Below, piece after piece: positions 15,460-40,979 of a stretch of 43,475 nucleotides of DNA. The stretch spans positions 1 to 43,475 of the forward strand of contig CADEGF010000017.1 of NCBI GenBank assembly GCA_902826815.1, read 5' to 3'. Below the pieces are notes generated by a model. It was not told where the DNA came from. It saw only the letters and a list, made by a program, of their open reading frames with translations, and ran no database searches. This DNA is from an uncultured Mycobacteriaceae bacterium. Its GTDB lineage: Bacteria; Actinomycetota; Actinomycetes; Mycobacteriales; Mycobacteriaceae. Positions within the stretch are counted from its first letter, which is position 1, and each line of letters starts with the position of its first letter. A program made the position numbers and the translations under genes.

Positions 15460-16230
15460 GTGATGGAAAGTGTCGGCATCTTCATTCGCCTGCTTGGGCC
15501 ATTTCAGATTCTCAAGATGGGCGAACCCGCATCGCTGCGATCGGGCGGTAAAGCCGAACAGCTGCTCAGCATTCTCGCAATGCGTGCCAGGTCAGGGGTC
15601 CACCGCGAAACTCTGGTCGAGAAAATATGGCCCGACGCCGCACCCACTCTGTCAAAACAATGCCTGAACACCCTCGTGCACGGGCTCAAGACACAACTTG
15701 CCGACGCGATCGACGGGCAACCACCAATCGTGCACATGCAAAGCCATTACCTGTTGAATCTCGACAGCGGACTCAAGGTCGACGTGCTCGAGTTCGAGGC
15801 GGCGGTGGACACCGGACACCGATTGCAGTCGGAGGGTTCCGTCGCGGCGGCCATCGCGGCTTACGAGCGCGCCGTACTCCTGTATCGCGGCGACCTGACG
15901 TCCGACCCGGAGATCTCCGGATTGCTGGAGCGTGAGCGGTTGCGGGCGATCTGCCTGAACACCCTTGCGCGGTTGGCCGACGCGCACTTCGAACTCGCCG
16001 ACTACGAGCAGGCGCTCGCATACGCAGTCCGGCTGCTTGGCGTCGACCCCTGTCGCGAAGACGCCCACCGGATGACCATGCGGTCGTATGTCCGCCTGGG
16101 AGCGCGCGCCCAGGCGCTCCGGCAATACAACATCTGCCGTCTGATCCTCGCCGAGGAATTCGACGCCACCCCCGAACCCGCCACCGAACAGCTCTTCGCG
16201 CTCGTCCGCACCCAACCCGCCTTGATCTGA
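15460..16230 (+). CDS. SARP-family transcriptional activator (winged helix plus BTAD)
   Basis: The 256-residue protein has the plain two-domain layout of small SARPs. An OmpR/PhoB-like winged helix occupies about 7-95 (IRLLGPFQIL at the start, then GGKAEQLLSILAM and LVEKIWPDAAPTLSKQCLNT). A helical BTAD domain occupies about 100-245 (VDVLEFEAAVDTG, LYRGDLTSD, ALAYAVRLLGVDPCREDAHR, QALRQYNICRLILAEEF). There are no ATPase or TPR extensions. The start is GTG at 15460 or the ATG immediately after; neither has a strong ribosome binding site. SARPs are activators that bind direct heptamer repeats beside the -10 of target operons, and such an array starts 13 bases after this gene's stop. It is therefore probably the pathway-specific activator of the downstream injection-system operon. 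Confidence 0.9.
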   Translation: MMESVGIFIRLLGPFQILKMGEPASLRSGGKAEQLLSILAMRARSGVHRETLVEKIWPDAAPTLSKQCLNTLVHGLKTQLADAIDGQPPIVHMQSHYLLNLDSGLKVDVLEFEAAVDTGHRLQSEGSVAAAIAAYERAVLLYRGDLTSDPEISGLLERERLRAICLNTLARLADAHFELADYEQALAYAVRLLGVDPCREDAHRMTMRSYVRLGARAQALRQYNICRLILAEEFDATPEPATEQLFALVRTQPALI

Positions 16231-16242
16231 CTCGATCAGCCA

Positions 16243-16315
16243 CCTCAGCCAAACCTCATCGAGACCTCACCGACGACTCAGCCACCGGTCTCCGAGGCCT
16301 CATCCGGTGCTCAGC
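16243..16315 (+). promoter_or_regulatory. SARP-type heptamer array, 11-bp period
   Basis: Heptamers CCTCAGC (16243), CCTCATC (16254), CCTCACC (16265), ACTCAGC (16276), a degenerate GGTCTCC (16287), CCTCATC (16298) and GCTCAGC (16309) lie in exact 11-bp phase, with the shared core CTCA-N-C. Direct heptamers spaced 11 or 22 bp on one helix face are the known binding pattern of SARP/BTAD activators. The last unit ends 6 bases before a -10-like TAGTAC. The array sits between the SARP gene and the first gene of the injection-system operon. Confidence 0.8.
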
Positions 16316-16321
16316 ACCCGC

Positions 16322-16327
16322 TAGTAC
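16322..16327 (+). promoter_or_regulatory. -10 promoter element for injection-system operon
   Basis: TAGTAC fits the actinobacterial TAnnnT pattern except at the last base and lies just downstream of the last heptamer. No -35 hexamer is recognisable; in SARP promoters the activator replaces it. Transcription would start at about 16334, giving a short leader before the ATG at 16360. Confidence 0.45.
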
Positions 16328-16359
16328 AACTGGGCTCAGATCAAGTTGATGAGGTCCAC

Positions 16360-16575: not shown

Positions 16576-16647
16576 CGCGCCGACGTACCAGGCGCAACGC
16601 ATGAATCCGATGGTTCATGCGAATCCCCAACCCCTACGGAGGTTTTC

Positions 16648-18351
16648 ATGCCTGTTCTAGTCGTGCCAGGAGTATCCGTCGAGGCGACATTCGACGTCCT
16701 GCCACCGCTGCCCGCAGGGGCCGGCATCGTCGGCATCGTCGGCATCGTCGACCGGCCGCCGGCAGCGACGGCACCGCTGGGTGGCGTCAGTCGTGTCTCC
16801 GAACTGCAGGACCTGTTCGGTCCGGGGACCGTCGCCTCCATGCCCGAAGCGGTGGCCGCCCTTTCGACCGGCGCGCGGGAGGTCGTGGTGTCCGCCGTCG
16901 ACGGCGGCAACGCCGCGACCGCGACGCTGATGAACTCAGAAGAACCCCCTGGCCCGGCGGTTCGGCTGCGGGCCCGGTCTCGCGGCGCTTGGGCGAATCA
17001 ACTCAAGGCCGACGTCGGAGCCGTCACCAACGCCGCAGGCAAGGTCGTGCGCGTCTCTCTGCGGATCCTGCAGGGCGACCAAGAGGTGGAAAGCTTCAAC
17101 GACCTCGTCGTCGAGCCGGGCCAGCCGTTGGACCTGTTCAACACGGTCAACTCCCAGTCGACCTACGTCGTCGCGGTCGAGCCCAACTTCGACGGCGAAG
17201 ACCCCAAGCCGGGCGACTATCCCCTCGGCGCCCAAGGCTCTGTCGAGGTCGAGCAGGCGGGCGCGGCAGGCACGGTGTTGATGGACATCAAGCTGAATCC
17301 CGGCGTCACCGATCAAGGCGTGACAGTGCGCATCGCTGGCGCGGGCGACGCGATAACTGTCGAGGTGCTCCGCAACGGTGCACGACAGGAATTCTTCGAG
17401 AGCCTGACCATGGACCCGGACTCGAAGTCGCACCTGCCGACGATTCTCGCCGCGTCGAGTCGACTCGTCCGTGCGGTGCCGCGCAGCTCCCTGGCTGCCG
17501 CCGCCAGGCTGCCGCGGGCGACACCGGCACCGGTGGCGTTCGCCGGCGGCACGTCACCCAATGTCGCGGCCTATCGCGCCGCCATCGACCGGCTCTCCGA
17601 CGACTCGCGCATCGACCTGGTGATGGCCAGTTTCGACCCGGCCCTGAGTTCGGCGAACGTGATCCAGATCCATCAGGCGCTTCTCGCGCACGCCCTGACG
17701 TCGAGTGACGCCGCCGCGCCACGCATCGCGTTCGGTTCGATCCGCGCGGCCGACGCCGACAACCTCGACGCGATCCGCGATCACGCTGCCGCCGTACGGA
17801 ACAGACGGTTCGTGCTTGTCGCGCCACCGGGCGCCACCGGCGCCGTGGTAGGCCTCATCGCCCGCATCAACCCGGAGATCTCGCCGACCTTCCAGTCCAC
17901 CCAGCTGCTCGGCATCCCACCGTCGAGCTACCGAGAGAGCCAACTCAACGTGCTGCTCGGGTCGGCGGTGAACCTGCTCGTCGTGCAACAGCGCGCGGGT
18001 CACGGGGTGATCGTGCTCAAGGGCATCAACACCATCGGTGACCAGATCTCGGTCACCCGCGTCGCCGATCGGTGTATTCGCGAGACGAAGGCGATCAGCG
18101 AGAACTTCATCGGCCAACTCAATTCCGCGGACGCCCGGGACGCCTTGAAGCAACAGCTTGTCGCGACGTTCACCCGGCTGGAACGCGCCGGCGCACTCGT
18201 GCCAAGCACCGACGGCTCCGACCCTGCGTTCCTCGTCGACGTCTACTCGACGGGGCAGGACTTCTCGCAGGGCATCGTCCGGGTCGACATCGCGGTGCGC
18301 CCCGTCCGGGCGATCGACTACGTGTACGCGACGATCCGCGTCAAGAACTAG
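16648..18351 (+). CDS. Contractile tail sheath protein
   Basis: The 567-residue protein starts behind acggagg. The N-terminus MPVLVVPGVSVEATFD has the PGV-x-V beginning of phage and injection-system sheaths. Later come VSELQDLFGPG, a middle domain with RGAWANQLKADV, and a C-terminal domain from about 470 to the end (ADRCIRETKAISENFIGQLN, then VDIAVRPVRAIDYVYATIRVKN). That closing strand is the conserved sheath C-terminus that forms the inter-subunit handshake. It polymerises around the tube and contracts to drive it. Only one sheath gene is present, whereas Afp and PVC have three. The tube gene follows after 21 bases. Confidence 0.93.
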   Translation: MPVLVVPGVSVEATFDVLPPLPAGAGIVGIVGIVDRPPAATAPLGGVSRVSELQDLFGPGTVASMPEAVAALSTGAREVVVSAVDGGNAATATLMNSEEPPGPAVRLRARSRGAWANQLKADVGAVTNAAGKVVRVSLRILQGDQEVESFNDLVVEPGQPLDLFNTVNSQSTYVVAVEPNFDGEDPKPGDYPLGAQGSVEVEQAGAAGTVLMDIKLNPGVTDQGVTVRIAGAGDAITVEVLRNGARQEFFESLTMDPDSKSHLPTILAASSRLVRAVPRSSLAAAARLPRATPAPVAFAGGTSPNVAAYRAAIDRLSDDSRIDLVMASFDPALSSANVIQIHQALLAHALTSSDAAAPRIAFGSIRAADADNLDAIRDHAAAVRNRRFVLVAPPGATGAVVGLIARINPEISPTFQSTQLLGIPPSSYRESQLNVLLGSAVNLLVVQQRAGHGVIVLKGINTIGDQISVTRVADRCIRETKAISENFIGQLNSADARDALKQQLVATFTRLERAGALVPSTDGSDPAFLVDVYSTGQDFSQGIVRVDIAVRPVRAIDYVYATIRVKN

Positions 18352-18372
18352 CCGGCCAGGAGGACCACAACC

Positions 18373-18744: not shown

Positions 18745-18751
18745 CAGAAGA

Positions 18752-19942
18752 ATGCCCAATCCGCTTGTCGTCGTTGATCTGACAGTCGGCACCGCCCGCA
18801 TCGCCGACACCACGGTTGCGGTGCAAGGCCAACCAGGCGGCGCGCTGAAGCTGGCCGGCAGGGTGATCCGTCCGCTGAGCTTCGGCGAGCGGTGGCGACT
18901 GCTCGACGACGTGGCCTCCAGCGGAAGATCGCTCGGTGCAACGGTTTTGGCCCGCTCCTGCGCTCGCGAATCGGCCACTGAACCGTCGGCAGACGACGCG
19001 GTCGCTCAGATCCTGGCCATGCACCTGGCCGGTGCGCGTCCCGAACGACGGGCGCACGCGTTCGAAGCCCAGCTGGCGTGGCTGGTTGCGGAAGGGTGGA
19101 AGGCCCACGACGTCTTCCACACCGATGCCGACCTAGTCGACCTCCTCACCGCGGATGCACTCGGCACACCAGCAGAGAATGACTGGACGACCATCCTTCT
19201 CGTTCCCGACGCGGCCACCTCGCTGACGGAGGTCTTGCTGACGCTGGAACGGAACCTGTTCGACCGCATGATGTCACCCGATGTCGGCGATGCCGTCATC
19301 TGTGGCGATCCCCACCGGGTGGCGCAGGCCGAATTCGATTCCCCTCCGGCTTCATTCGCTCATATCGATCGTCGCAGCCTCGACCACCCGCCGAATGTGA
19401 ATCACCCCGTCGCGTCATCGGCAGGCGGGCGGCCCTCAACGCGGGCGCTCCCCGCACGGAAGGCATCGTCAGCGTCAACCGCCAACCATGCAGTCGCCGG
19501 CCGCGCCGACTCCTTTGTGCCATCCGTCGAAACACGCACCGTCGCAGACGACGGGGACACGGCGGTCGTGATACCGGACGCTCCACGCCCCATCCGAGCC
19601 GGATGGCCCGGGCATCCCGCAACGAACGCACGGCCGGACGCGGGCCGTAACAGTGCCCCGACGGCGCGCGCACCACAAGATCCGTCGGCGAGTGCGATGC
19701 GCTTCCCCGAATCGGTCCTCTCGCGTGCCGAGACGCCCGCGGTTTCGCAAGGACTCCGACCGCGAAACCGGGCGACTCCCCCCGCGGGCGCGGCATCCAC
19801 CGTCGTGCACGACGACCCCGTCGCGACGCGGACGTCACCGCTCGCGACCCCGTCACCGGCGGGGCCTGACGCGCTCGAGCTGGCCGATCAGCTGGCTGCG
19901 CTGTTGGATGACGAATCCGACCTCCGAGGTCTTCGCCGATGA
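18752..19942 (+). CDS. Possible tail assembly chaperone/baseplate protein with disordered C-terminus
   Basis: I do not recognise this 396-residue protein with confidence. The first 170 residues look folded: an IRPLSFGERWRLLDD helix, ATVLARSCAR, AVAQILAMHLAGA and a tryptophan-bearing helix AQLAWLVAEGW. This resembles T4-like baseplate/assembly proteins that sit between tube and hub genes and bind the tube or tape measure. From about residue 180 it becomes a long Pro/Ala/Arg/Ser-rich low-complexity tail, ending with a short helix ELADQLAALLDDE that may be a docking peptide. It starts 7 bases after the tube stop, and its own stop overlaps the next start as ATGA. Chaperone is the best guess; a scaffold is equally possible. 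Confidence 0.5.
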   Translation: MPNPLVVVDLTVGTARIADTTVAVQGQPGGALKLAGRVIRPLSFGERWRLLDDVASSGRSLGATVLARSCARESATEPSADDAVAQILAMHLAGARPERRAHAFEAQLAWLVAEGWKAHDVFHTDADLVDLLTADALGTPAENDWTTILLVPDAATSLTEVLLTLERNLFDRMMSPDVGDAVICGDPHRVAQAEFDSPPASFAHIDRRSLDHPPNVNHPVASSAGGRPSTRALPARKASSASTANHAVAGRADSFVPSVETRTVADDGDTAVVIPDAPRPIRAGWPGHPATNARPDAGRNSAPTARAPQDPSASAMRFPESVLSRAETPAVSQGLRPRNRATPPAGAASTVVHDDPVATRTSPLATPSPAGPDALELADQLAALLDDESDLRGLRR

Positions 19943-20637
19943 CCTCGCCCGCGCAGCCCGCGTCACCACCGCCGCCGATGCCGCTCGTCGGAGACATCGC
20001 GCTGAGCTCCGTACAGCAGATCGATCACGTGATGAGCGCGGGATTTCAGCGGATCGCCGTCCCGGGGCTCGACGGAGACGTTCTGCAGCGCGCGGGCCGC
20101 GGATCGCACGGCATCTGGATCCGCGGTGTGCTGTCGGGCGAGACCGCGGTGGCCGACCTCGGCAAGCTCCAGAAACTGGCCGCCGCAGGCACCGAGGTGT
20201 CCTTCTCCACCGACATCACCGTCGCGCTCGAACTGGCGCAGGTCGTCGTGGCCGACCTTCGCGCTCAAGCCGTTGCAGGCACCGACAAGCTCGTCGGCTA
20301 CGAGCTCAGCCTGATCGAAAGCCCGCCGCTGCCACCGCCTGCCGAGGTCAGTGGCTTCGGCGGCCTCGACGACTTCGGCCTCGGCGACCTCGGATTCGAT
20401 GCCGACATCATCGGCGACGTCATGGGCGATATCGCCGCTGTCGCCGGGGACGTCGCCGCTGCGGTCGATTCGGTGATGGAGGTGGCCGACCAGCTGTCCG
20501 CCCTCGCCGCCCTCAGCTCCCTCGACGTCGGCGGACCACTGCAACCGCTGTCCGGTGCCGTCGAGAATGTCACCGCCGCCACGGGCACGTTCAAGGACAT
20601 CTCCAAGTCGCTCAACGATTTACTAGGCGGCAACTGA
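19939..20637 (+). CDS. Tube-to-hub adaptor-like protein (gpN/Afp7-like N-terminal domain)
   Basis: A 232-residue protein. Residues 15-130 hold a beta-rich domain (VQQIDHVMSAGFQRIAVPG, GIWIRGVLSG, TEVSFSTDITVALELAQVVV, LVGYELSLIES). This resembles the N-terminal domain of Mu gpN/DNA-circulation-like and tube-initiator proteins. After a proline linker, the rest is Gly/Asp/Ala-rich with hydrophobic helices (GDVMGDIAAVAGDVAAAV). Afp7-like adaptors usually end in a LysM domain; none is seen here. The gene overlaps the upstream stop as ATGA and the downstream start as TGATG, which places it tightly with the hub genes. Its likely role is the first ring that joins the tube to the baseplate hub. Confidence 0.6.
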   Translation: MTSPAQPASPPPPMPLVGDIALSSVQQIDHVMSAGFQRIAVPGLDGDVLQRAGRGSHGIWIRGVLSGETAVADLGKLQKLAAAGTEVSFSTDITVALELAQVVVADLRAQAVAGTDKLVGYELSLIESPPLPPPAEVSGFGGLDDFGLGDLGFDADIIGDVMGDIAAVAGDVAAAVDSVMEVADQLSALAALSSLDVGGPLQPLSGAVENVTAATGTFKDISKSLNDLLGGN

Positions 20638-21659
20638 TGCCCGTGCTGAGCTTCGGCGCGACCGCCACGATCGGCTCGCTGCGCTACACCGGCGGGATCG
20701 CCGCGATTCGCATCACCCTGGCGATCGGACCCGGTGTCGGATCGGCTCGCATAAGCCTCCCCCGTGACCTTCGGGCGGACGCAAGACCCGGCGATGACGT
20801 CACCATCGCCCTGACCGGGGAGTCGCGCGACGAGGTCACCGCATTCACGGGGTCGGTGTCAGCGGTGCACCGCGCGCTGGATCAGACCGTGGTGCTCTGC
20901 GGTGACGCCTGCGCCGCGCTGGCCGCCACCCGGACGGGCAGCACATTCGAGCAGCAGGACGCGCGTGCGATCGCCAATGCCCTTGCGCGCGAGGCAGGTG
21001 TGGGCACCGGCACCGTCGACCTCGACCTCGATCTCGCGTGCTACGTCGCCGACCAGGGTCGCACCGCGTTGGAGCACCTCACCGTCCTGGCCGGCTGGAG
21101 CGGCGCATTCGTCACCGCTGCGGCAGACGGCAGCGTCGTCGTTCGCAAGTTCCCGTCACCGCCTGCGGACACCGCACTTCGCTACGGACGAGAGATCGCC
21201 GAACTAGGACTGACCGCGAACACGCCTGCCGCCGAGGTGATCTGGACCGGCAACGGGCCCGCAGGAGACGGCTCCGACCCGCGCGCGCAGTTGCAGAGCA
21301 CCGGCACCCTTCCCGACGGCGCGGCGGGCCCTGCTGCGCACACCATCCGGGTCGCGGCGCCTGCGCTGCGCACACCTTCCGCCGCGGCATCGGCCAACCA
21401 GGCGTACGCCAGCCACAACGGCGCGGCACGGCTGACAGCGAAGTGCTGGCTCGTGCCGGGACTGCGCGCGGGCACCGCGGTCGAAATCGCCGACGCGCCA
21501 ACACCGGAGTCGACCGGGCCGTGGTTGTTGACCCGCGTGGTGCACACCGTCGGTCCCGGGCCCGCGGGCCGAACCACCTTCGACGCGGTCAGCATGGCGG
21601 CGGCGGCTGGCGGCGGCCTGCTCGACATGATCGCCGGCGCGGTGGGGAGCCTGCTGTGA
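20637..21659 (+). CDS. Baseplate hub protein, gpD/gp27-like
   Basis: I place the start at the ATG overlapping the upstream stop; the open frame extends further 5' only as out-of-frame shadow. The 340-residue product has a first barrel (ARISLPRDLRADARPGDDVTIAL with FTGSVSAVHR) and a helical insertion QDARAIANALAREAGVG. It then has DQGRTALEHLTVLAGWSGAFVT with a following strand DGSVVVRKFP, and a second barrel closing with TGPWLLTRVVHTVGPG. This is the order of late-control-D/gp27 hub proteins, which form a trimer adapting the six-fold tube to the three-fold spike. Here it is a separate gene from the spike, as in phage P2, whereas Afp8 and VgrG are fused. Confidence 0.8.
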   Translation: MPVLSFGATATIGSLRYTGGIAAIRITLAIGPGVGSARISLPRDLRADARPGDDVTIALTGESRDEVTAFTGSVSAVHRALDQTVVLCGDACAALAATRTGSTFEQQDARAIANALAREAGVGTGTVDLDLDLACYVADQGRTALEHLTVLAGWSGAFVTAAADGSVVVRKFPSPPADTALRYGREIAELGLTANTPAAEVIWTGNGPAGDGSDPRAQLQSTGTLPDGAAGPAAHTIRVAAPALRTPSAAASANQAYASHNGAARLTAKCWLVPGLRAGTAVEIADAPTPESTGPWLLTRVVHTVGPGPAGRTTFDAVSMAAAAGGGLLDMIAGAVGSLL

Positions 21660-22309
21660 CCACATTGTTCGACTCCGTCGCCCGCATCGCACGGCACGAG
21701 GCCGGGGCGCGCTCGATCGCCGGGATCGGCATCGTCGTCGACGTCTTCGACAGCGACAGCGCGCCACCCAATCACGCGGTATCCGTCAAGCTGCGCGACA
21801 CCGGCACGCTGTTGCCGAAAGTGCCGATCGCAGTGGGTGTTCCAGGGCAAGCAGCGACCCCGCGGGCAGGAGATCTCGTCGTCGTTCTGTTCGCCGACGG
21901 TGACATCAACGCACCGGTGGTGATCGGTACGCTCTACCACGCCGACCTCGCCCCGCCCGCACACGGCGACGGCGACGTCGTGTTCGCGTTGCCTGCCGGC
22001 GCTTCGCAACCCGGTTTCCGGGTCGTCCTGCGCGGCGACGACCCGAAGCTGACCATGACGATGGGCGACGTCGAGCTCGTCGCCGATGACACCCGAGTAC
22101 GAATTCGCACCGGCGACGCGCAGGCCATGCTGGAAACCGCGGGCAGCGGCCGGATCGAACTGAAAATCGGCGACGCGAGCATCACGATCACCGGCGGAAG
22201 CGACATCGTGCTGAAGACCGGGGGAAAACTCAGTCTGAGCGCCGACCAAGTCGAGATCGCGGGGCAGAGCTCGGTCACCATCTCCGGTGCACAGGTGAAG
22301 GTGAACTGA
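21656..22309 (+). CDS. Baseplate spike protein, gpV/gp5 C-terminal-like
   Basis: The start is the GTG overlapping the hub stop (GTGA), giving 217 residues. The N-terminal OB-fold is recognisable: GIGIVVDVFDSDSAPPNHAVSVKL, then PGQAATPRAGDLVVVLFADGDINAPVVIGTLYH. That arrangement is diagnostic for gpV/VgrG spikes. The second half is a series of short alternating strands (VELVADDTRVRIRTG, IELKIGDASITITGG, LKTGGKLSLSADQVEIAG, SSVTISGAQVKVN), as in a trimeric beta-helix needle. It would form the central spike that carries the PAAR tip, encoded immediately downstream with a one-base overlap. Confidence 0.9.
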   Translation: MTTLFDSVARIARHEAGARSIAGIGIVVDVFDSDSAPPNHAVSVKLRDTGTLLPKVPIAVGVPGQAATPRAGDLVVVLFADGDINAPVVIGTLYHADLAPPAHGDGDVVFALPAGASQPGFRVVLRGDDPKLTMTMGDVELVADDTRVRIRTGDAQAMLETAGSGRIELKIGDASITITGGSDIVLKTGGKLSLSADQVEIAGQSSVTISGAQVKVN

Positions 22310-22710
22310 TGGGCCAGCCAGCTGCCAACGGAGCCGCCACGGTCGTCGGCGTCGACACCCACATCGTGCTAGTGCCTTCCCCCGGCGGGCCAGTGCCCAC
22401 CCCACTGCCACATCCGTTCAGCGGGCCACTCAACTGCGGGCTGGTCAACAACGTCCTGATCGCAGGACAGGCCGCCGCGGTGGTCGGGTCGATGGCGACA
22501 AACCAGCCTGCACACCTGCCGACCCCACCCGGCGTGTCCTTTCAGGCGCCGCCCGCGAACACGGGCACCGTGCACATGGGCAGCACCGGCGTGCTGATCG
22601 GAGGTCAACCGGCCGCCCGCAACGGAGACCCCGTGCGCACCTGCAACGACCCCGTCGAGGCGCCGGTCGGCCAGGTCATCGCCGCCGTCCCGAGCGTGAC
22701 GATCGGCTGA
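22309..22710 (+). CDS. PAAR-repeat spike tip protein
   Basis: A 133-residue protein with PAAR features: THIVLVPSPGGPVPTPLPHPFSGPL at the start, NNVLIAGQAAAVVGSMATNQPAH in the middle, and a second half TGTVHMGSTGVLIGGQPAARNGDPVRTCND. His and Cys residues suited to metal binding at the tip occur near 71, 89 and 106. PAAR proteins cap the spike as a sharp cone and can carry effectors. Here there is no extension, so cargo would be carried elsewhere. The start overlaps the spike stop as TGATG. Confidence 0.92.
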   Translation: MGQPAANGAATVVGVDTHIVLVPSPGGPVPTPLPHPFSGPLNCGLVNNVLIAGQAAAVVGSMATNQPAHLPTPPGVSFQAPPANTGTVHMGSTGVLIGGQPAARNGDPVRTCNDPVEAPVGQVIAAVPSVTIG

Positions 22711-22724: not shown

Positions 22725-23276
22725 ATGACCGATTCCTCGCTCCTCGGCACCGATCTTCGTGTCGTGCTCGGCCCGCCAGGGATGGCGGTCGACGACGCGA
22801 GAGCGCTCGACGTGCGCAGCCGTCCGACGCCGGTGCAGCGCGCGCAACGCGCCCGCTTCGGCCAACCGGCAATGCCTGAGGCCGGAGCGGATGCCGGTCT
22901 GCAAAGGTGGCAGCCCGAACCGGCTGGGGCAGCCGAACTGTTCGACCTCGACACCATTTCCGGTCGGCACAACGTGGCGCAGGCGTTGATACTGAGGCTG
23001 CTGACGCCGAAAGGCGCCTTGGCCGACCTCGGACACGCAAGTTACGGATCTCGGCTCGGCGAGCTGATCGGGCAGGGCAAGACGGAAGAGCTGCGCGGGC
23101 TGTGCCGCGCTTACATCCTGGAGGCCGTTCGCGAGGAGCCGCGGGTCGAAAACAAGCCCCTGGCAATAGATTTCGACCCAGCTCGCGAGCAGTCCTCGAG
23201 CTTTGTGGTGGAGATCGTGGTCCAGCCGGTGTCCACCGGCGACCCGGTCACTGTCGGAGTGGAGGTCGGGCTGTGA
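22725..23276 (+). CDS. Baseplate wedge protein, gp25/gpW-like
   Basis: A 183-residue protein. Residues 65-183 match the gp25-like wedge fold: FDLDTISGRHNVAQALILRLLTPKG, LADLGHASYGSRLGELIG and a C-terminal strand pair ending in VTVGVEVGL. The conserved helix-turn 'LLTPKGxLxxxxxYGSxLxxL' is the usual mark. The N-terminal 60 residues are an extra, poorly ordered extension. It nucleates the sheath at the baseplate. The start lies 14 bases after the PAAR stop, and the stop overlaps the baseplate J start as GTGA. Confidence 0.85.
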   Translation: MTDSSLLGTDLRVVLGPPGMAVDDARALDVRSRPTPVQRAQRARFGQPAMPEAGADAGLQRWQPEPAGAAELFDLDTISGRHNVAQALILRLLTPKGALADLGHASYGSRLGELIGQGKTEELRGLCRAYILEAVREEPRVENKPLAIDFDPAREQSSSFVVEIVVQPVSTGDPVTVGVEVGL

Positions 23277-31923: not shown

Positions 31924-34900
31924 TGGTCACGTTCGAAGCAGAGATCAACGCGCTCGACTTCGCCGAGATCGACGCCGCACTGGCACGGGCCAGGACCGCG
32001 ATCGAACAGGCGCAAGGGCTTTCGCTGAACCTGCACCCGTCGGCACTGCTCGGCGAGCTCGGAACCGCAATGAACGCGATCGGCGAGGCCGGGCTGAACC
32101 CCGCCGATCTCGGCGATCTGGGAATGCAGGCCGTCGAGGCGCTCGGCGGTCTCATCGAGCTTCCGGACCTGACCGGTATCGAAGAGATCGTCGGCGGCTT
32201 CGACACGCTCGCCGATCGGCTTTCGGTGCTCGTCGCGATTTTCAGCGGAGGGGGCGACGGCAAGGACGTGCTCGACCGGGTGTTCGCGACGCTGAGCGGA
32301 TCGCTTGACCTCGAGGCGCTGCTCGGCGAGATCACCGAGCGCGCCGTGCGGGCATTCGACATCGCGATCCCCGACGAGTACGCCGCACCGATGCGGGCAC
32401 TCTCCGCACTCGCGGGCAATCCCGAACCGACGCAACTGCTCGACATACTCGGCTCGGTCTTCACCGGTCTCGACGTCGCGGCAGTGGCTGATCTGGTGAA
32501 CGCGGCAGAAGGAGCGCTGAAACTCGTTGCAGCTGCGGGCGATGCCGCTCCGCTACAAGCCGCGGTCGACGCGGTCCACCTCCGGCTGGATGCCGGATAT
32601 CGCTTGATGGCTGCGCCGGACATCGACGTGGCGGGCCTGCTGGCCGCGATCAACGCGATCGGAGCCGAGGTCGACCACATCGCCGCCGTGCTGCCACAGT
32701 TCGCCACCGGACTCGGTGCGGACCTGCGAACCGCGGCCAACACGCTGTCCGGCCTCGACGTGGCGGGGTCACTCGACAAGCTGATCGACCGACTCCCGCT
32801 GCCCGGCGAGGACATCCCGCGCCAGCTCGTCGACTCGCTCGAAGGAATGGCCGACTTCCTCGAGCAGATCGACGGTGCCGCGGTCACCGCGGCGATCGCG
32901 GCCATGAAGGACGAGTTGCTCGCCGCCGCGGGCCTCGACCAACTGACCGATCTGCTTTCCGGGATGGACAAGGTGTTCGACGACGCAGGCGCCATGCTCG
33001 ATCGACTGCCTGCGCGACAGTTGCGGGACGATGCGGTGGCGGCCCTCGTGACCGCCCAGCAGAAGGTGCTGTCCTTCGATGGATTCAGCTTCCTCGACGA
33101 TGCGATCGCCCCGGTTCGAGCCCTGGAGAACAGGATTCGCACGCTGGACCTGGGCGCCGTGACCGATGCGGTCGACGCGGTCAAGCAGCAGTTGGACGAT
33201 TTGACGGCCGACGTCGACGTGACCCCGGTCCGCGAAGCCGTCGACGCGGTCGTCGACCCGCTCGGCGAGATCGTCGAGCGGCTCGTGCCGTTCGTCGAAA
33301 AGGTGGCTGCGCTGCTCGGCACGCTTGTCGACTCGCTGACGGCAATCGACTTCGACGCCGCGGGAGCGACGACTCTCGACTTGATGCACGGGATCCGTGG
33401 CCAAGTCGCCGACGCAGTCGGCGGCGGCGACGTGCCGGAACCGGTCAAGGTCGCCGTCGCGGCAGCGGCGGCCGTCCTGCGCAAGATGGACGTTTCGGTT
33501 CAACTCACCAAACCATTCGACGAGTCGATCAAAGTGATAGACATCGCCGGACTGCTCGAGCCGATCGAGGGCACATGGCACATCGCGGGGGATGCATTGG
33601 CCAAGGCGACGCCCGCCGCACTGATCGCCGAACTGGACCCGCCATTCGAGAAACTCCTCGACGCACTGGACAAGGTCGGTCTGCAACAGCTGATCGACGA
33701 GGTCCAGCGGCTGTTCGACGATGTGGTGGCCCAGCTGCGCAAGCTGGACCCGCGCACACTGGTCTCGCCGCTGGAGACCAGGTTCCAGAGCCTGGTGGCC
33801 GAGGTGACCGCGTCGTTGGACCCCGCACCGCTCTTTGCGCCGTGGCGCACGGCGTATCACGCACTGACCGAGCTCCTCGACCAAATCGATGTCACCGCAA
33901 CGCTTCACAGTGTTCTGAAGGGCCTTGCCGACATGCCCCACCAGATGACCACCCGACTGGGCGACCGGTTGCAGGCGGGTGTGTCCGGTGCGGCTCCCGC
34001 CCCGGTCGCCGCAGACGGGTTCCAGCTCGGCGACGTTCTGCGCCCGCTGGCGCTGTTCCTCGGCGAGATACGCGGCAGGCTGTCAGAACTCAGTGCCGAG
34101 GTACTCGGCCCGGCACTGGCCGGTCTCGCCGCAGCGACCCGCGGACTGCGGTCACTCACCGACCCCGACACCGGCTTCGCGGTGCAACTCGGCGATGCCG
34201 TTGACACCAGGATCGCGTGGCTGGACCCGAACTCCGGCAGCGGGCCACTTGCGCAGCTTCGCACCGACCTCGAGTCGTTCCAGATGGCTGTGCAGGCAAT
34301 CGATGTCGGCGCCGGTGCACATGCACAGCTGACCGCGTCGGCGGACGGCGTGCAACTCGACGCCAGGGTGCACATCGAGGCCGACGGCGAGGCTGCCCGA
34401 CACGCGAAAACGATTCGCAGCGCCGCCGATTCGGCGGCCCTCGGCCGAAGCCTGCGGCTGCTGGCACGCGCGCTCGATGCGGTGCTGCCCGCAGAGCTGC
34501 TCACCGGTGCGCTCGACCCGGCGGCCGCCACCGACGCGTTCCTCGACGCGGTGTTCGCTCGGGTCGACCCGAGCGAACTTGCCGACCAGTTGGACGCTGT
34601 CGGCGGCAGAATCGAAGCCCGGTTCGTCGCACTCGCCGAGCAACTCGGCAATGGGCTGTTCCTCTTGATCGACGCAGTCTTCGCCGGCATCGAGCCGCTC
34701 ATGCCCGACAGCGTCATCAACAGGCTGCAGAGTGGGATCGACGGCGTGACAGCCCGTTTCACTGTGCTCGATCCCACCCCGATCGAAGACGAGGTACGCG
34801 ACATCATCAAGGCCGCGATCTCGCTTCTTGCCGTGCACTCACCTGCTGAGCTGGCAGCAGAGCTCGGCGCCGTCTTCGACAGCTGCGTCGACCGGATCAA

Positions 34901-35198
34901 CTCGCTTGCGCCTGCCACGCTATTCGCGGGGGCGGATCCGTTCGTCGCCGTCAAGACGCAGCTGGAGGCGATGAAACCCAGCACGGTGCTGGAACCGCTT
35001 GTCAGCAAGACCAAGAAGTTCACTGTCGCGCTGGACACCATCACCAACATCGACCTCGACTTCGCGGTCGGTGTCGTCGGCGAGCTGAAGCAGAATTTCG
35101 AGGCCGTGCTCGACGGCGTCGAACGTGAGTGGAATGCCTTGCTGGACGAGCTTTCCCGAGTCTCCGGGGGTGTCTCGGCGAATGTCAGCGTGGGATGA
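31923..35198 (+). CDS. Tape-measure-like 1,091-residue helical protein
   Basis: The ATG overlaps the preceding stop (TGATG). The protein is almost wholly helical, made of irregular repeats about 35-60 residues long. In these, motifs such as AVxAVxxQLDxL, LxxLxEQIDGAAVTAAI and FxxLLDALDKVGL recur, with Ala, Leu and Asp dominating. No enzyme motif or clear membrane segment is visible. Size, composition and place after the fibre genes match the Afp14-type tape measure, which fixes tube length. At about 1.5 angstrom per residue, it would give a tube in the range of 150 nm. A different long helical fibre or scaffold is the alternative. A short Ala/Val run (KVAVAAAAAVLRKM) near 505 is the most hydrophobic part. 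Confidence 0.6.
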   Translation: MVTFEAEINALDFAEIDAALARARTAIEQAQGLSLNLHPSALLGELGTAMNAIGEAGLNPADLGDLGMQAVEALGGLIELPDLTGIEEIVGGFDTLADRLSVLVAIFSGGGDGKDVLDRVFATLSGSLDLEALLGEITERAVRAFDIAIPDEYAAPMRALSALAGNPEPTQLLDILGSVFTGLDVAAVADLVNAAEGALKLVAAAGDAAPLQAAVDAVHLRLDAGYRLMAAPDIDVAGLLAAINAIGAEVDHIAAVLPQFATGLGADLRTAANTLSGLDVAGSLDKLIDRLPLPGEDIPRQLVDSLEGMADFLEQIDGAAVTAAIAAMKDELLAAAGLDQLTDLLSGMDKVFDDAGAMLDRLPARQLRDDAVAALVTAQQKVLSFDGFSFLDDAIAPVRALENRIRTLDLGAVTDAVDAVKQQLDDLTADVDVTPVREAVDAVVDPLGEIVERLVPFVEKVAALLGTLVDSLTAIDFDAAGATTLDLMHGIRGQVADAVGGGDVPEPVKVAVAAAAAVLRKMDVSVQLTKPFDESIKVIDIAGLLEPIEGTWHIAGDALAKATPAALIAELDPPFEKLLDALDKVGLQQLIDEVQRLFDDVVAQLRKLDPRTLVSPLETRFQSLVAEVTASLDPAPLFAPWRTAYHALTELLDQIDVTATLHSVLKGLADMPHQMTTRLGDRLQAGVSGAAPAPVAADGFQLGDVLRPLALFLGEIRGRLSELSAEVLGPALAGLAAATRGLRSLTDPDTGFAVQLGDAVDTRIAWLDPNSGSGPLAQLRTDLESFQMAVQAIDVGAGAHAQLTASADGVQLDARVHIEADGEAARHAKTIRSAADSAALGRSLRLLARALDAVLPAELLTGALDPAAATDAFLDAVFARVDPSELADQLDAVGGRIEARFVALAEQLGNGLFLLIDAVFAGIEPLMPDSVINRLQSGIDGVTARFTVLDPTPIEDEVRDIIKAAISLLAVHSPAELAAELGAVFDSCVDRINSLAPATLFAGADPFVAVKTQLEAMKPSTVLEPLVSKTKKFTVALDTITNIDLDFAVGVVGELKQNFEAVLDGVEREWNALLDELSRVSGGVSANVSVG

Positions 35199-35207
35199 GG
35201 CAACGAG

Positions 35208-38200
35208 ATGACGACGACGGATCACGGGCAGGGAACGAGGTTCATCGAGGAAGTTCTCGATGACGCGGTCCGCGGTCGGCGGCGGTTCTGGCGCGACGAC
35301 GCCGGGCTTACGGTCCGGGTTCAGATGGCAGACGGCGCAACTCTTGAAGTACACCGTGACGACGCCGACGGCGTTTTCGGCGTGACAACCGGCGACGGGT
35401 CGCCGTTGCTCACCCTCGCCGCTCCGGTTGCCATCCCCGCCGCCTTACGCGCGATGGGGCTGACCCCCGCACAGGCGGCGGAGATCGATGGCACACACCG
35501 ATTGGCCGCGACCGACCGCAGCGGCACAACCAGGACCGAGTTGCGCGGGCGGACAATCCGGGTGGAACGCGAAGGCGCGGTCCTGCGGATCGACGCGGAC
35601 GACGACGGACGGCCCCGGCGAGTGACCACGCCCGGATTCGACGACTTGGTCTGCTGCTGGACTGACGGCCGCTGGCAGATCGGCCTGCTGGACGGCCCCC
35701 TCCTGCTGACCATCGCCGAATCGCCGGACCGCACCGACTTCGCAGCCCGGTCGGCGACCGCCGACCTGAGCTGGTCTGAAGCACAACTCGACACCGGCCA
35801 ACGGTGGTCAGACCGCGACGAAATCCCGCTTGTGGAAACCGATCTGGACATGGCGGGCAAAGTCAGCCATCGCACATGGCACGACGGCCGGTCGATCGGT
35901 TACAGCCGCGACGAGCACGGCAGGCTGATCGAATGGGCCGAGACGCTGTCGGGCACCGACACGGCGCGGACGACGGTCCATGCCCGCCAGTACACCGGGA
36001 ACGAACTCAGCGGAACGCTCAGCAACGGCGTCCGCACGGTTGTGCGTTCCGACGGCGCCGGGCGCATCCGAAAGCTGATCGGGCCGATGCGCACCGTCAG
36101 CTATGAGTACGACGCCAACGGCAGGCGAGTTTCTCGCGCATGTCGCGGGCACCTCACGACCTACACTTACGACCCACTCGGCCAGCTCACCTGCGTGACG
36201 ACGCCGGAGGGCACGGTCGAATACGGGTGGGACGCGCTTGGCAGGCGGATATCGGTCACCGCCCTCGGCACCGAGTACCGCGAGCACCGGGATACGACCG
36301 GGCGGCTGTGGTCGGTGACGACCGCGGCGGGTGAGCCGGTCTGCCGCTTCCTGTGGTGGAACGGCAGGGCGGTCGCTCGCTGTGACGCCGACGACGCGAT
36401 CGACGAGATCTACCTCACCGATCCCTTCGGCACACTTCTCGGCGTGGCGAGCGCGACGACGGATTGGTGCTTCCGTGACGCGATGCAGCCACCCTTCGGC
36501 CAGGTCGGTGCCGGTATCGGTTGGCGCCCAACACTGTTCGGTCACATCGCCGACGACTACACGCCGCTGATCTGTTTCGGCGGGCGCGAACTCGACCCGG
36601 AGACGGGCAGCTTCCTCACCCCTGACCCCTGGCACGGCGACCCCGATGATCCGCGCCTGCTGGCCGGACATTCGCCGGCATCACTGCCAAAGGAAGTACC
36701 GGCCAACGGAATTCACGCGTACGCACTGAGCCAGTACGATCCGCTGGGTCGGCCCGACCGCGACGGCCACTTCGCCGTCTTCAACTTCGTGCTGACCCTG
36801 ATGCTCGGCCCGACGTGGGGCGCCACCCTCACCTCGCTGTCACTTTTCCTGTTCGCCCCCCTCAATTTCTACGGTGAGGTCATCGGGTTGCTCGGTTATA
36901 TCGGCGGCAGACACGCGTGGCCTCAGCATTCGATCTTCGGCCTGCGTGCAGTGACGGGCAGCTCGCGGTTGGGCACCATGGGCCTGGCATTGAACGGCTT
37001 CGTGCCACGGGGTTTCGCGGGTGTCAACGAAGACCGGTGCATCACCATCGGCTACGTGGCGTGGGAGAGCAGGCATTACTTCCGCCAGCTGGACCGCCCC
37101 CGTGTGCTCGAACTCGATGACATCTCGGGCACGCCGAAGCCCGACGGCAAACCCAGTCTCGACGCGCGCCGCTTCTCGTCTAGCGCCGGCGGCTCCATCG
37201 TCGCCATCACCGGTACCGACCGCGACCGCCGGAAGCGGGTTTACGCCAGCTGGTGGACGCGTGGACCCGGCAATGCGGTGAGCGTGCGCAGTGGCGCTCA
37301 AACATTCGAGGACCAGGTAAAGCCCGGCGACCCGCATGCACGCGGCACGATATTCCTGGCCCAGCCGATGCCGGAGTCGATGCCTGCACCGAGCTCGAAC
37401 AGCGACACCGAGACGCTGACCGTCGACGAGTACACGGTCACACAGAGCAGCACCGCAGAGTTCGTCCCCGAGGTGTGGTTCGCCGTCGACGTCGAGGCCA
37501 ACTCCGGCGTCGCGGCGGGCACCGTGCTCGGCGTGTCCGCAGGACCATTGGCTTCGGCCTACGGTGCCGTTCTCACGGTCGTGCCCGGCGCCGAGCCCGT
37601 TGCGGTCCTCGACCACGAACTACCGCAGCGGTTCAAGAACCGGCGAGGCCTACGCAACTCCGTCACCCTGCAGAAGCTCACCGTGTCGGCAGTGACGAGC
37701 AACGGGTGGACGTCGAGGCCCGGCGCAGCCAAGCCGAACCAGATGATCGACATCGTCGCCCCCCCGCATCCGGTGGCGGTCGGCGACGTATTTCGTTGTG
37801 CCCCGACCGGCGGCGCACCAGCAGGACGCCCGGACGCGTACACCGCGGTGGAGTCGGTGTCCCTCGCACTCACCGTGTCACCCACGCTCGGCGCCACCGC
37901 GGTGGCCGGGGCCACCCTCTACCGTCTCGCGCCGGACGGCGTCGCGACCAACGCCGCGTACCCGGGCCCGCCGGGCAATCCGGCTCAGCTGACATTCGCC
38001 CGCGAGCAGCCATTCGCGGTCGACGAGCTGGTCCAAGTCGTGGCGGGGGCGGTCACTCGGTACGGCCGCGTCACCGCGGTCGCCGAGCCGGTGGCCGCCG
38101 GCCCGCCGGGGCCTGGCGGTGCGCCAGGAACACCCGCGACGCCTGCCTCGATCACCCTCGACGAGCCGCTCACCGGGCTGCCCGCCGGTGCTGTGAAGGT

Positions 38201-40979
38201 GGCCCGCCTCAAGGAGACCAACCGCGACATCGACAAGGGCGCCGGCGTCACCCAAGCCGGCGACGTGCTCACGGTGAAGGTCGCCTCAACCGCCTTGTTC
38301 ACGGCCAACCAGCCGGTGCTCATCGACAGAGCACCGCGACTGGTGCGCGAGGTCTCGACGATCGGAACGGTCGGCGTCGACACGGTCGACGAGCTGATCG
38401 GAACCGGCCCGTTCACCCTGACGAAGTACACGCCCGACGGTTCCACCATCGGCACCAAGATGTCGTCGTCTCGCTTCCTCAAATGGATCAGCGGTCCGGC
38501 GCCGGCTTCGTATGGCACCTGGCCAAGCGCGATCATGGGGCTGGTGCCCGCCGCATCCGACCCCGATCGACAGCCCAGCGGCTGGCGCTTCTTCCTCCAG
38601 TGCAATCCGCGCCCCGCGGACATGCATCCGGAGTTCGGCGACTACTGGCAACCGGCCACCGTCGCCGGGGTGGACTACTGGCTGCTGTCCAGCGAGCTGA
38701 AGATCACCAGGACCGGTAACAATTTCTACTTCGAACCCGACGCCGACGACCACCCGAGGCGCTATCGGCTGAATATCGCGCCGCCGGACCCCATTACCGG
38801 TGCCTCCCGCCTGGACGTGAAGGGGTTCCTCAAGACCGCGGTGACCCGCCCCGACGCAGGCGGGGGCCGGGTATTCGCATTCCCCGCCGAGGCGCAGGTG
38901 CCCGAGGCGCCACGCGCACGGTGGAGTCTCGGGGACTCGCTGGCCGACCACGAACTCACACACACCCTCCAGAACACATGGTGGGGACCGATTCTGGGCG
39001 CACTTCCCCTGCAGGGTGCATTCCGCACAGTCCGAGATGTGCTGGTGGCCAACAATATTGACCTCGACAATGATGCTCCCGAATGGATGATGCACCCGTT
39101 CGGGGGAGGTTTCGCGGACATGAATGTGTTCGAGGTCCTCAGCATCGGCGGACTGATGCAGATCATCTGGAGCTTCGTGATCCTCGGGCCCGCCCTGCCG
39201 GACGCCGACGCCCGCCGTGCGATCCTGTCGACGAACTTCGACGACTGGTCGAGCGTGTTCAGCCCGGTCAACCACTTGATCATCGACGCCATTCCCAAAG
39301 TGCAAGACGATGTGCCCGAGTCGAAGGACTGGAAGGTGGTACTCGGCCGCGCGCTGACGCGGGCCCTCGACATGAAGGCATGGACCCCTTTCATCGGGTT
39401 CATCAAGCTGATGCTGCCCGACGGGCCGCGAAACTTCCTCGAACAGCAGGCAAGTCGCAAGAGCGGAAACCTCTACTCCACCCTGCTTTCGGTCGACGAC
39501 AAGTTCAGCGCCCGGCTGGCGTTGGCGCCGAACATGACCAACGCCAATGTCACCAAGCAGCTGGGCGGCGTCGCGCGGCTGATGTCCTACGCCGACGGCT
39601 ATCAGAGCCGCACAACGGCATTGGCACGGTGCGACGCCGACGGTTCGCACCTGATGACCTTCAACGACACCTTCGGCTGGGGCGCCGCGGCCGGCATCTT
39701 GCAGTTCAAACCCGCCGCCGGTGCGCTGCTGCCAGCTGATCTATACGAACCGGTGGGCGCAGCACCGGTGCCGAGAATAGTGGTGGACGGTCCGACCATC
39801 GGAGGCACGCCGACGACGACGGAGCTGCTCGACGTACCGGCGAACACGCTGATGCAGCCGCGTCTGCAGGCGATCGTGCCGATCCCGCCCCGGGTATGGC
39901 AGGCGCTCGGCTGCTACCTCGTGCCCGCCGGCCCCGCGGTGTGGTCCGCGACCGCACCCGATGCGTTTCCGCACCCGGCAGCCGATGACGCGCACACCGC
40001 CGAGGCGAAGATCACCGTCAAGAGCCGCGTCACCCTCGGGTCCGACGACGTGCCGTGGAGCAACCCGCCGGCGACCGGCGTCGCCCCGACGGGTCCGAAG
40101 ATCGCCCGCTTCGTCACCGAGAAACAGGCCCTGACCGTGAGCGGACACAAAACCATCGGCTGGGAGGCGGCCGGCGAAAACGGTGTCACGGTGACCCCCC
40201 GGCCGGCTGGCGGCGGGTGGGATCTGGCGGTCGACCCGCCGACGCCGGGGGTGGCGCTACCCACCGACGTGCGGGTGCGGATCTGGTCGCCGGTGCGGCG
40301 AACGGACGCCACACTTTTCGACCTCGATCATCCCGACGTCCCGACCCTCTCTGGCACGCGCAGCTACCTCGAGAAGGACATCTGGATCCCGGTGCGGGAC
40401 TTCCTGATCACCGTCACCGACCTGCCTGCGCTGCCGGCAGGCGGGGCGCCGGCGACAATGACGGCGAACGGCTCATACGACCTGGATCTACCGATCAAGG
40501 TCGCAGGACCGCCGAGCATCGTCGTCGCAGGCGCGCTGCTGCGCGCCGGCCGCGACAGCGACCTGCCGCCGCGTGGGGAACGCTGGAAGTTCACCGTGAG
40601 CGGTGACCGGTTCGTCGAGGCGCCGCAGACCGTGCATGTCGTCGTGCGGTTCGGTCCGGGCGTGGAACGGCCCTTCGATATCACCGTGAACCCGAATTTC
40701 ACTCTGGACGCCGCCACTTTCGACGTGACACAGGCGGCTCCGCTGGCGCTGACGATCAACGGCGGCGCGGCGCCCTTCACCGTCGTCGATCAGCCACCGG
40801 CCGCGTCGCGCGCCACGGTCGCGATCGCAGGTACCACCGCCACCGTCACCATCGCCGCACCGCCGCCTGTGCCTCCCGGCGGCCCCGCACCGGGTCCGGT
40901 CGCACCGATCACCTGGAAACTCAAGATTCGCGACGGCGCAGGCAATCTCGGAGCACGCACGATCACGCTGCATCCCTGA
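35208..40979 (+). CDS. Giant RHS-repeat protein with HExxH metalloprotease-like region, candidate effector
   Basis: This 1,923-residue protein is the last gene of the locus. YD/RHS repeats at about 210-400 (YEYDANGRR, YTYDPLGQLT, YGWDALGRRIS) lead into an RHS-associated core at about 455-520 (GGRELDPETGSFLTPDPW, then NGIHAYALSQYDPLGRPDRDGH). A hydrophobic stretch follows (523-566). The remaining 1,350 residues are unlike usual short RHS toxins. They include beta-rich regions, a GPPGPGGAPG linker, and HELTHTLQ at 1248-1255, an HExxHxxQ motif seen in RHS-linked and DUF4157-type metalloprotease-like domains. The C-terminus is Ig-like strands. RHS shells enclose toxic domains. There is no immunity-like gene downstream. 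It may be cargo or a particle-tip component. Confidence 0.82.
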   Translation: MTTTDHGQGTRFIEEVLDDAVRGRRRFWRDDAGLTVRVQMADGATLEVHRDDADGVFGVTTGDGSPLLTLAAPVAIPAALRAMGLTPAQAAEIDGTHRLAATDRSGTTRTELRGRTIRVEREGAVLRIDADDDGRPRRVTTPGFDDLVCCWTDGRWQIGLLDGPLLLTIAESPDRTDFAARSATADLSWSEAQLDTGQRWSDRDEIPLVETDLDMAGKVSHRTWHDGRSIGYSRDEHGRLIEWAETLSGTDTARTTVHARQYTGNELSGTLSNGVRTVVRSDGAGRIRKLIGPMRTVSYEYDANGRRVSRACRGHLTTYTYDPLGQLTCVTTPEGTVEYGWDALGRRISVTALGTEYREHRDTTGRLWSVTTAAGEPVCRFLWWNGRAVARCDADDAIDEIYLTDPFGTLLGVASATTDWCFRDAMQPPFGQVGAGIGWRPTLFGHIADDYTPLICFGGRELDPETGSFLTPDPWHGDPDDPRLLAGHSPASLPKEVPANGIHAYALSQYDPLGRPDRDGHFAVFNFVLTLMLGPTWGATLTSLSLFLFAPLNFYGEVIGLLGYIGGRHAWPQHSIFGLRAVTGSSRLGTMGLALNGFVPRGFAGVNEDRCITIGYVAWESRHYFRQLDRPRVLELDDISGTPKPDGKPSLDARRFSSSAGGSIVAITGTDRDRRKRVYASWWTRGPGNAVSVRSGAQTFEDQVKPGDPHARGTIFLAQPMPESMPAPSSNSDTETLTVDEYTVTQSSTAEFVPEVWFAVDVEANSGVAAGTVLGVSAGPLASAYGAVLTVVPGAEPVAVLDHELPQRFKNRRGLRNSVTLQKLTVSAVTSNGWTSRPGAAKPNQMIDIVAPPHPVAVGDVFRCAPTGGAPAGRPDAYTAVESVSLALTVSPTLGATAVAGATLYRLAPDGVATNAAYPGPPGNPAQLTFAREQPFAVDELVQVVAGAVTRYGRVTAVAEPVAAGPPGPGGAPGTPATPASITLDEPLTGLPAGAVKVARLKETNRDIDKGAGVTQAGDVLTVKVASTALFTANQPVLIDRAPRLVREVSTIGTVGVDTVDELIGTGPFTLTKYTPDGSTIGTKMSSSRFLKWISGPAPASYGTWPSAIMGLVPAASDPDRQPSGWRFFLQCNPRPADMHPEFGDYWQPATVAGVDYWLLSSELKITRTGNNFYFEPDADDHPRRYRLNIAPPDPITGASRLDVKGFLKTAVTRPDAGGGRVFAFPAEAQVPEAPRARWSLGDSLADHELTHTLQNTWWGPILGALPLQGAFRTVRDVLVANNIDLDNDAPEWMMHPFGGGFADMNVFEVLSIGGLMQIIWSFVILGPALPDADARRAILSTNFDDWSSVFSPVNHLIIDAIPKVQDDVPESKDWKVVLGRALTRALDMKAWTPFIGFIKLMLPDGPRNFLEQQASRKSGNLYSTLLSVDDKFSARLALAPNMTNANVTKQLGGVARLMSYADGYQSRTTALARCDADGSHLMTFNDTFGWGAAAGILQFKPAAGALLPADLYEPVGAAPVPRIVVDGPTIGGTPTTTELLDVPANTLMQPRLQAIVPIPPRVWQALGCYLVPAGPAVWSATAPDAFPHPAADDAHTAEAKITVKSRVTLGSDDVPWSNPPATGVAPTGPKIARFVTEKQALTVSGHKTIGWEAAGENGVTVTPRPAGGGWDLAVDPPTPGVALPTDVRVRIWSPVRRTDATLFDLDHPDVPTLSGTRSYLEKDIWIPVRDFLITVTDLPALPAGGAPATMTANGSYDLDLPIKVAGPPSIVVAGALLRAGRDSDLPPRGERWKFTVSGDRFVEAPQTVHVVVRFGPGVERPFDITVNPNFTLDAATFDVTQAAPLALTINGGAAPFTVVDQPPAASRATVAIAGTTATVTIAAPPPVPPGGPAPGPVAPITWKLKIRDGAGNLGARTITLHP

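Follow-up and report, generated by a model that had tools for sequence, protein, structure and literature searches.

A contractile injection system locus without a recognised AAA+ ATPase gene in an uncultured Mycobacteriaceae bacterium

Does a run of contractile tail genes from an uncultured Mycobacteriaceae bacterium, in which neither head genes nor an Afp15-like ATPase gene are recognised, encode an injection particle of a known family, or does it belong to a distinct, little-described branch, as a first-pass annotation made from the sequence alone had proposed? The stretch of DNA analysed here, referred to as the window, comprises bases 1 to 43,475 of a contig of 107,988 bp (CADEGF010000017.1) in a genome of 6.87 Mb. 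Profile scans covered this 43.5-kb window, and ORF calling and searches for Cis15 were extended along the contig to base 79,999.

Extent and gene content of the locus

Seventeen co-directional genes extend from the sheath gene g02 (starting at 16,648) to the giant gene g18 (ending at 40,979), separated by gaps of -4 to +34 nt and intact (Table 1). The coordinates of the single contractile-tail run delimited in the first-pass annotation were thus confirmed. The SARP/BTAD regulator g01, whose GTG lies at position 15,460, stands 417 nt ahead of the sheath gene and likely controls the operon; a homologue occupies the same place in Mycolicibacterium agri, M. senegalense and Agromyces. A BTAD regulator also lies beside the canonical operon of S. 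clavuligerus (L161, 23,119 to 25,116, versus 15,463 to 16,230 in the window), hinting at a common mode of control in actinobacteria.

According to the Pfam scan, the part of the window upstream of the operon encodes nothing out of the ordinary (permease, acyltransferase, P450, peptidases, amidohydrolase), and a copper chaperone-like gene followed by a tyrosinase gene lies directly 3' of the operon. The latter two occupy 41,037 to 43,475 of the window, the last one continuing to contig base 43,596. Given that their relatives are found upstream of the operon in M. agri (joined set, 9815 to 12,128), the two neighbourhoods share genes in a rearranged order. The M. agri contig also retains three upstream genes with an identity of 82-90%. 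For 17 of the 18 genes, identity to M. agri and M. senegalense ranges from 61 to 91%, the exception being g04.

No capsid, terminase, portal, integrase, lysin or other lysis gene was detected among the window genes scanned with Pfam, in agreement with the earlier reading; these scans omitted the hub and a small first ORF, and the hub was covered by PHROGs and NCBIfam. A headless contractile tail operon without lysis genes, a trait of canonical eCIS and PLTS, is therefore what the scanned genes present. Sheath searches found one sheath gene in the host genome, in line with the one sheath gene first described for the locus, and a PF04984 search of that genome returned no sheath match. Profile searches, which had been suggested as a check, recognised the sheath, hub, spike, PAAR, gp25, J and RHS proteins of the original part list, with the hub (VgrG_rel) and gp25 (PF04965) below the cut-offs. 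The tube, adaptor, wedge, fibres and tape measure on that list found no firm profile and are putative assignments based on position, conservation and sequence character.

Table 1. Genes of the locus with their positions in the window and the evidence for each assignment.
Gene	Assignment	Position	Strand	Evidence or character
g01	SARP/BTAD transcriptional regulator	15463..16230	+	PF03704 E 8e-27; non-structural
g02	contractile sheath	16648..18351	+	PF17482 E 2.6e-7 (over cut-off); phrog_279 E 7.7e-21; clade of 16
g03	probable inner tube, 123 aa	18373..18744	+	position after sheath; in 17 other loci
g04	fast-evolving protein	18752..19942	+	44% / 38% to M. agri / M. senegalense
g05	probable tube-baseplate adaptor	19939..20637	+	DUF6046 E 0.002, below cut-off; relatives' best E 1.2e-6
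g06	hub (gpD-like)	20637..21659	+	VgrG_rel E 7e-8, far below model cut-off
g07	spike (gpV-like)	21656..22309	+	PF04717 E 2.5e-6; phrog_9992; VgrG models below cut-off
g08	PAAR tip	22309..22710	+	PF05488 E 9.6e-9
g09	gp25 baseplate wedge	22725..23276	+	phrog_975 E 3.7e-15; PF04965 below cut-off
g10	baseplate J	23273..25000	+	GTG start 23273; PF04865 E 3.2e-14; phrog_6 E 6e-40; clade of 17
g11	probable gpI-like wedge	24997..26268	+	position after J; conserved among relatives
g12	small structural protein	26303..26806	+	phrog_5417 E 2.8e-15
g13	probable trimeric fibre	26837..27790	+	sequence; cross-match with g14 profile, 189 bits
g14	probable coiled-coil fibre	27794..29368	+	sequence; cross-match with g13 profile, 166 bits
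g15	candidate tail terminator	29384..30295	+	inference
g16	conserved protein	30292..31923	+	recognised in nine other genomes; like-sized slot gene in four more
g17	tape-measure candidate	31923..35198	+	A+L+D+E 47%
g18	giant RHS protein, 1923 aa, putative effector	35208..40979	+	PF05593 E 1.4e-12; HExxHxxQ at residue 1248

One relative of the probable tube protein g03 matched PF18906 (Phage_tube_2) below the cut-off (E 0.0079), and the g03 profile had no match in the PDB. Its comparison by hhalign with ten canonical and phage tube genes, some of them taken as tubes by position, was not significant. The protein g04 may occupy an assembly-chaperone slot; it was recognised in six other genomes, all actinobacterial, and different sequences fill the slot elsewhere. 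Among the relatives of the hub, one matches Phage_GPD (E 5.4e-8). Another genome of the same order has, in the vicinity of a CIS that is otherwise canonical, a PAAR gene closely resembling g08 (E 4.7e-48; L101, 12,278 to 12,667). No notable Pfam match and no PHROG match were obtained for g11, and a single Walker pattern in Frankia g11 was taken as chance. The proteins g13 and g14 look like paralogous trimeric fibres; they have a domain of about 190 residues in common, with HDHP in both. Pfam gave no match for g13 and weak matches only for g14 and g17, which were taken as coiled-coil chance. An identity of g15 with Pvc16_N was considered and dropped, the two profiles matching at only 0.2%, and the g15 profile found nothing meaningful in the PDB. 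Of 12 g17 genes called, 11 encode proteins of 1075-1202 aa and one, a crude call with a far-upstream start, a protein of 1596 aa.

Phylogenetic placement and distribution

The sheath tree of 34 rows (without Paenibacillus L151, phage RaK2 L157 and G577, the last with a weak partial sheath match) contains a new clade of 16 rows with a support of 100/99 and a canonical eCIS clade of 10 rows with 99/95, the latter comprising G432, S. clavuligerus, Deinococcus, Brasilonema, Haloferax and five more; G336 and G381 had no sheath in the stretches examined. Forcing the new clade and canonical eCIS together was rejected (p-AU 0.0004), also after removal of four long rows (p-AU 5.6e-5) and under a constraint that admitted intermediate sequences and excluded phages only (1.8e-5). 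Because the sheath groups were partly picked post hoc and the tree contains long-branch phage rows, these tests suggest, without proving it, that the two lineages are independent. In the J tree, the 17 rows of the new clade (100/100) are separated from canonical J by a very long branch, and sisterhood with canonical eCIS is not rejected (p 0.38); only S. clavuligerus and G402 yielded a canonical J, so that this tree has two canonical rows. The first-pass annotation had proposed to place both proteins by phylogeny, and both fall outside the known eCIS clade, with the join rejected for the sheath only.

A profile of the 16 new-clade sheaths found a single PDB entry, 9ezm (E 1.1e-7), which is a strong match of the canonical CISSc-type sheath of G432 too, and the window sheath as a single query found nothing meaningful there. 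The G432 sheath alone retrieved 7b5h, 7adz and the PVC, AFP, pyocin and T4 sheaths; the Afp/PVC/AlgoCIS/tCIS sheaths in the PDB were thus missed by the new-clade profile but found by the CISSc-type sheath. The G432 sheath is nearly that of PDB 8bky (1050 bits), which we take to be the CISSc particle of Streptomyces coelicolor.

With canonical eCIS including CISSc, the window shares the contractile sheath, gp25, J and the spike/hub, and no head genes are listed for either, although sheath and J stand in different clades. The canonical locus of S. clavuligerus is annotated with a LysM adaptor, at least two genes of the tail-tube type and one gene related to VgrG, whereas the window, in which no LysM adaptor was detected, has one tube gene and separate hub and spike genes. 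That hub and spike are separate, as first described, was borne out, but this is not unusual in itself: the accessible part of Sarris 2014 (PMC4122934) reports it for several PLTS groups, Actinobacteria not being among those named there. A type VI secretion system would have a sheath of two gene products (TssB/TssC), a tube of Hcp, the membrane complex TssJLM and ClpV; the window has a single sheath gene, no model of this system exceeded its NCBIfam cut-off, and the locus does not qualify as one.

An alignment of J found 16 loci in the genome collection, distributed over Actinomycetota (M. agri, M. senegalense, Occultella, Agromyces, Phytomonospora, a Nanopelagicales MAG and two Frankia), Proteobacteria (Neoroseomonas, an Acetobacteraceae MAG, Sphingobium and a gammaproteobacterial MAG), and Verrucomicrobiota, Acidobacteriota and Desulfuromonadales (a Desulfuromonadales MAG and Verrucomicrobiaceae, Pyrinomonadaceae and Bryobacteraceae MAGs). 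The locus had been regarded as peculiar for lying in an actinomycete; it does lie in one, but the lineage crosses phyla and is not restricted to them. Its nearest named relative is M. agri (J 79%), which, together with the shared upstream genes, makes an environmental Mycolicibacterium the most probable host. Profiles of the window genes showed that the order sheath, tube, adaptor, hub, spike, PAAR, gp25, J, wedge, g12-g15 and g17 is kept where the contig is long enough, apart from Phytomonospora, which has no PAAR match, Frankia QA3, where a 283-aa gene without a match to the g15 profile fills the g15 slot, and Frankia gtarii, with a weak g15 match and g17 on the opposite strand. Gene calling was crude and of no use on the gammaproteobacterial MAG (G+C 0.50), and the all-frame profile searches are the firmer evidence. 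Two overlapping frames make up the spike of the Desulfuromonadales MAG (L040, 6807 to 7495) and the sheath of the Verrucomicrobiaceae MAG (L041, 2567 to 4851). Compared with the Mycolicibacterium type, the Frankia, proteobacterial, Desulfuromonadales, verrucomicrobial and Bryobacteraceae sheaths (L011, L014, L037-L041, L044) are about 200 residues longer, with an insert after about residue 186.

In the genome samples searched, the system is uncommon and its occurrence scattered. The sheath query matched none of 60 relatives (36 of the same genus) apart from its own genome, none of 297 further genomes of the order and 5 of 393 further genomes of the class, two of them weakly; the order and class searches scored no more than three or four candidates in each genome, so that matches may have been missed. 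One further locus (L015 in G564) was rejected as a member of the lineage and is a distant relative only, with a differing gene content. Plasmids gave no sheath match, and phages gave weak matches to Klebsiella jumbo phages only (10 records).

Among viral contigs, a first sheath scan confirmed none and an alignment-based second scan yielded two loci, the IMG/VR contigs L046 and L047, which form the nearest outgroup of the new sheath clade (support 99/98). They have the same order of sheath, tube, adaptor, hub, spike, gp25, J and wedge, but differ in that no PAAR was found, extra genes follow the tube, L047 has two adaptor-like genes and the sequence ends before g12. The ORFs read in L047 (1 to 13,566) include no head genes, and this contig looks like a cellular, possibly archaeal locus and not a virus.

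The missing ATPase and the terminal giant gene

As had been claimed for an Afp15-like ATPase, no AAA domain was found in the operon by Pfam, and the search beyond the window that had been suggested at the same time detected no Cis15 on the contig to base 79,999. The queries were five genes of comparison genomes, assigned as Cis15 by place and mutual similarity (38-64% identical, E 1e-59 or better), and they had no match at E 1e-3 in 20 contig sets from 17 lineage genomes (745,854 bases). The best 23 of 33 AAA matches in the host genome all lie on other contigs; to the 20 regions that hold them, Cis15 showed a generic similarity, at best 37% over 145 residues (E 8e-12). Pvc16_N (DUF4255), the usual partner of Cis15, had no match in the host genome, compared with 18 of 148 genomes with a match in the class. 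The canonical locus of Haloferax, in contrast, has an AAA ATPase beside DUF4255, neither of which was detected in the window operon. A 655-aa Walker gene upstream in Phytomonospora was rejected as the ATPase, being an elongation-factor GTPase; upstream Walker genes are also present in Sphingobium (853 aa) and Frankia gtarii (748 aa), whose contig sets are without a Cis15 match. Since the same ATPase-less gene set recurs in distant phyla, it looks like a separate, little-described branch, and the proposal of such a branch gains support from the sheath and J clades and from the Cis15 search of the contig.

Thirteen contig sets reach past g17, and in 11 of them a giant gene or open frame of 1721-2767 aa comes next. 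The terminal gene of the Bryobacteraceae MAG is truncated by the contig end (824 aa), and Frankia gtarii, with its inverted g17, has a next gene of 706 aa and no giant. The motif HExxHxxQ, with an adjoining Gly-Pro, is present in 8 of the 12 terminal proteins (the 11 giants and the cut one) and invariant in their alignment; it is absent from the Acetobacteraceae, Sphingobium and gammaproteobacterial MAG proteins and from the cut Bryobacteraceae protein. The motif region of the eight proteins aligned with the second half of the eCIS_core profile (hhalign E 2.4e-5, 76%). Window g18 alone had no eCIS_core (DUF4157) match in Pfam, and the giant of the Nanopelagicales MAG matched below the cut-off in the protein scan (E 0.0017, 18.9 bits) and above the 22-bit cut-off in the genome search (25.3 bits). 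RHS repeats were found by Pfam in three of the seven scanned giants (window, Frankia QA3, Verrucomicrobiaceae), and no Pfam family at E 0.01 in that of Phytomonospora. Weak M23 peptidase matches, below the cut-off, were obtained for the Sphingobium and Acetobacteraceae giants, both alphaproteobacterial and without HExxHxxQ (the two loci being L053, 908 to 9202, and L055, 12,104 to 18,679). The terminal slot may hold the payload of the system, although proteins with RHS repeats and proteins with an M23 match at this position may serve different functions. A headless contractile tail operon, a terminal putative effector gene and an eCIS_core-like motif are also features of Afp, PVC, AlgoCIS and tCIS, from which the window locus differs in having neither the Afp15-like ATPase nor Pvc16_N.

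A putative ATPase-independent particle and its competing readings

In the reading that we consider likely, the product of the locus is a complete contractile injection particle belonging to a lineage of its own, and this particle works without the canonical eCIS AAA+ ATPase, has its cargo built in and delivers the giant g18; the formation of particles, the identity of the tube and the function are predicted from sequence. In such a particle, the baseplate (g09-g11) would assemble on the hub, spike and PAAR tip (g06-g08), g03 would polymerise around g17 as the length setter, g02 would polymerise outside the tube, and g15 or g16 may form the end cap. In the accessible part of PMC11495950, the Pvc15 ATPase is described as facilitating effector loading into the PVC tube; a lineage without the ATPase must therefore load otherwise. 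Cargo might be incorporated during assembly in the fashion of a phage tape measure, with g17 inside the tube and without threading by an ATPase. The protein g18, presumably an RHS shell with an eCIS_core-like metallopeptidase motif, would be attached to the tip or baseplate, and contraction triggered via the g13/g14 fibres would drive spike, tube and cargo into the target cell.

The ATPase might instead have been lost, or be borrowed from elsewhere in the cell, by an ordinary eCIS that has diverged strongly. Several observations fit this explanation, namely the J join that is not rejected (p 0.38), the eCIS_core-like motif of g18 and 9ezm, the sole PDB sheath found by the new profile, which is close to the canonical type. 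Moreover, at another place in the genomes of Occultella, both Frankia and Phytomonospora, a strong eCIS_core gene and an AAA gene lie no more than about 2.5 kb apart, a pair that we read as part of a separate canonical system. However, the sheath trees reject the join, the host has no Pvc16_N match and the best 23 of its 33 AAA matches resemble Cis15 only generically (at most 37%, E 8e-12 or worse), and we regard a diverged eCIS as unlikely. Far less probable still is that the locus represents an R-type tailocin or a prophage of which the tail alone is left. The parts that could be recognised are those of a phage-like tail, J matches baseplate proteins of phage Troll and halovirus HRTV-25 in the phage collection, and the tail genes and their order are shared with the contractile tails of Herelleviridae, haloviruses and actinophages. 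The scanned window genes, though, include no head, packaging or integrase genes and no lysis cassette of the R-type tailocin kind, a BTAD regulator stands in place of a phage repressor, and the g12-g18 block is conserved, with g12-g17 and the giant gene recurring across phyla.

Another question is whether the lineage has already been catalogued as a subtype in an eCIS database, for which we see a minor chance, somewhat above that of a diverged eCIS. The accessible part of Sarris 2014 (PMC4122934) names Mycobacterium sp. JLS and Frankia EAN1pec as PLTS carriers, but the same part describes the AAA+ ATPase as constant in PLTS clusters. As far as their accessible text goes, the surveys of Geller 2021 and Nachmias 2026 (PMC12923769) filter by markers, and these are absent or barely present in this lineage; those seen for Nachmias 2026 are DUF4157, Pvc16_N, CIS_tube and DUF6519, none of which occurs in the scanned window genes. 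The eBAP5 subtype of Nachmias et al. 2026 resembles our lineage in being called new, earlier missed and tied to Actinobacteriota in the available text, but it is defined by DUF6519, a fibre domain that no scanned window gene matches and that is not among the 25 families listed of 31 found by Pfam for 60 clade proteins. In the literature searched, no ATPase-less lineage or Mycolicibacterium system is described, and eCIS databases or subscription papers may hold one.

For the ATPase-independent particle, a possible origin, which we advance with less than even confidence, is that a contractile phage tail was domesticated for a second time, independently of Afp/PVC/CISSc; the part of Sarris 2014 (PMC4122934) available to us describes domestication as having happened once. 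The ATPase would never have been acquired, loading would have stayed phage-like and the system would have spread across phyla, perhaps including archaea via L047, and the giant proteins, of which many have an eCIS_core-like motif, would be its exchangeable payload, encoded in a near-fixed terminal slot.

If a widespread lineage without the ATPase is confirmed, the role of this ATPase would become testable by natural comparison, and marker-based surveys would be seen to be able to miss a branch. The lineage would also offer a system with a different mode of payload loading, and environmental mycobacteria would join the hosts of such machines.
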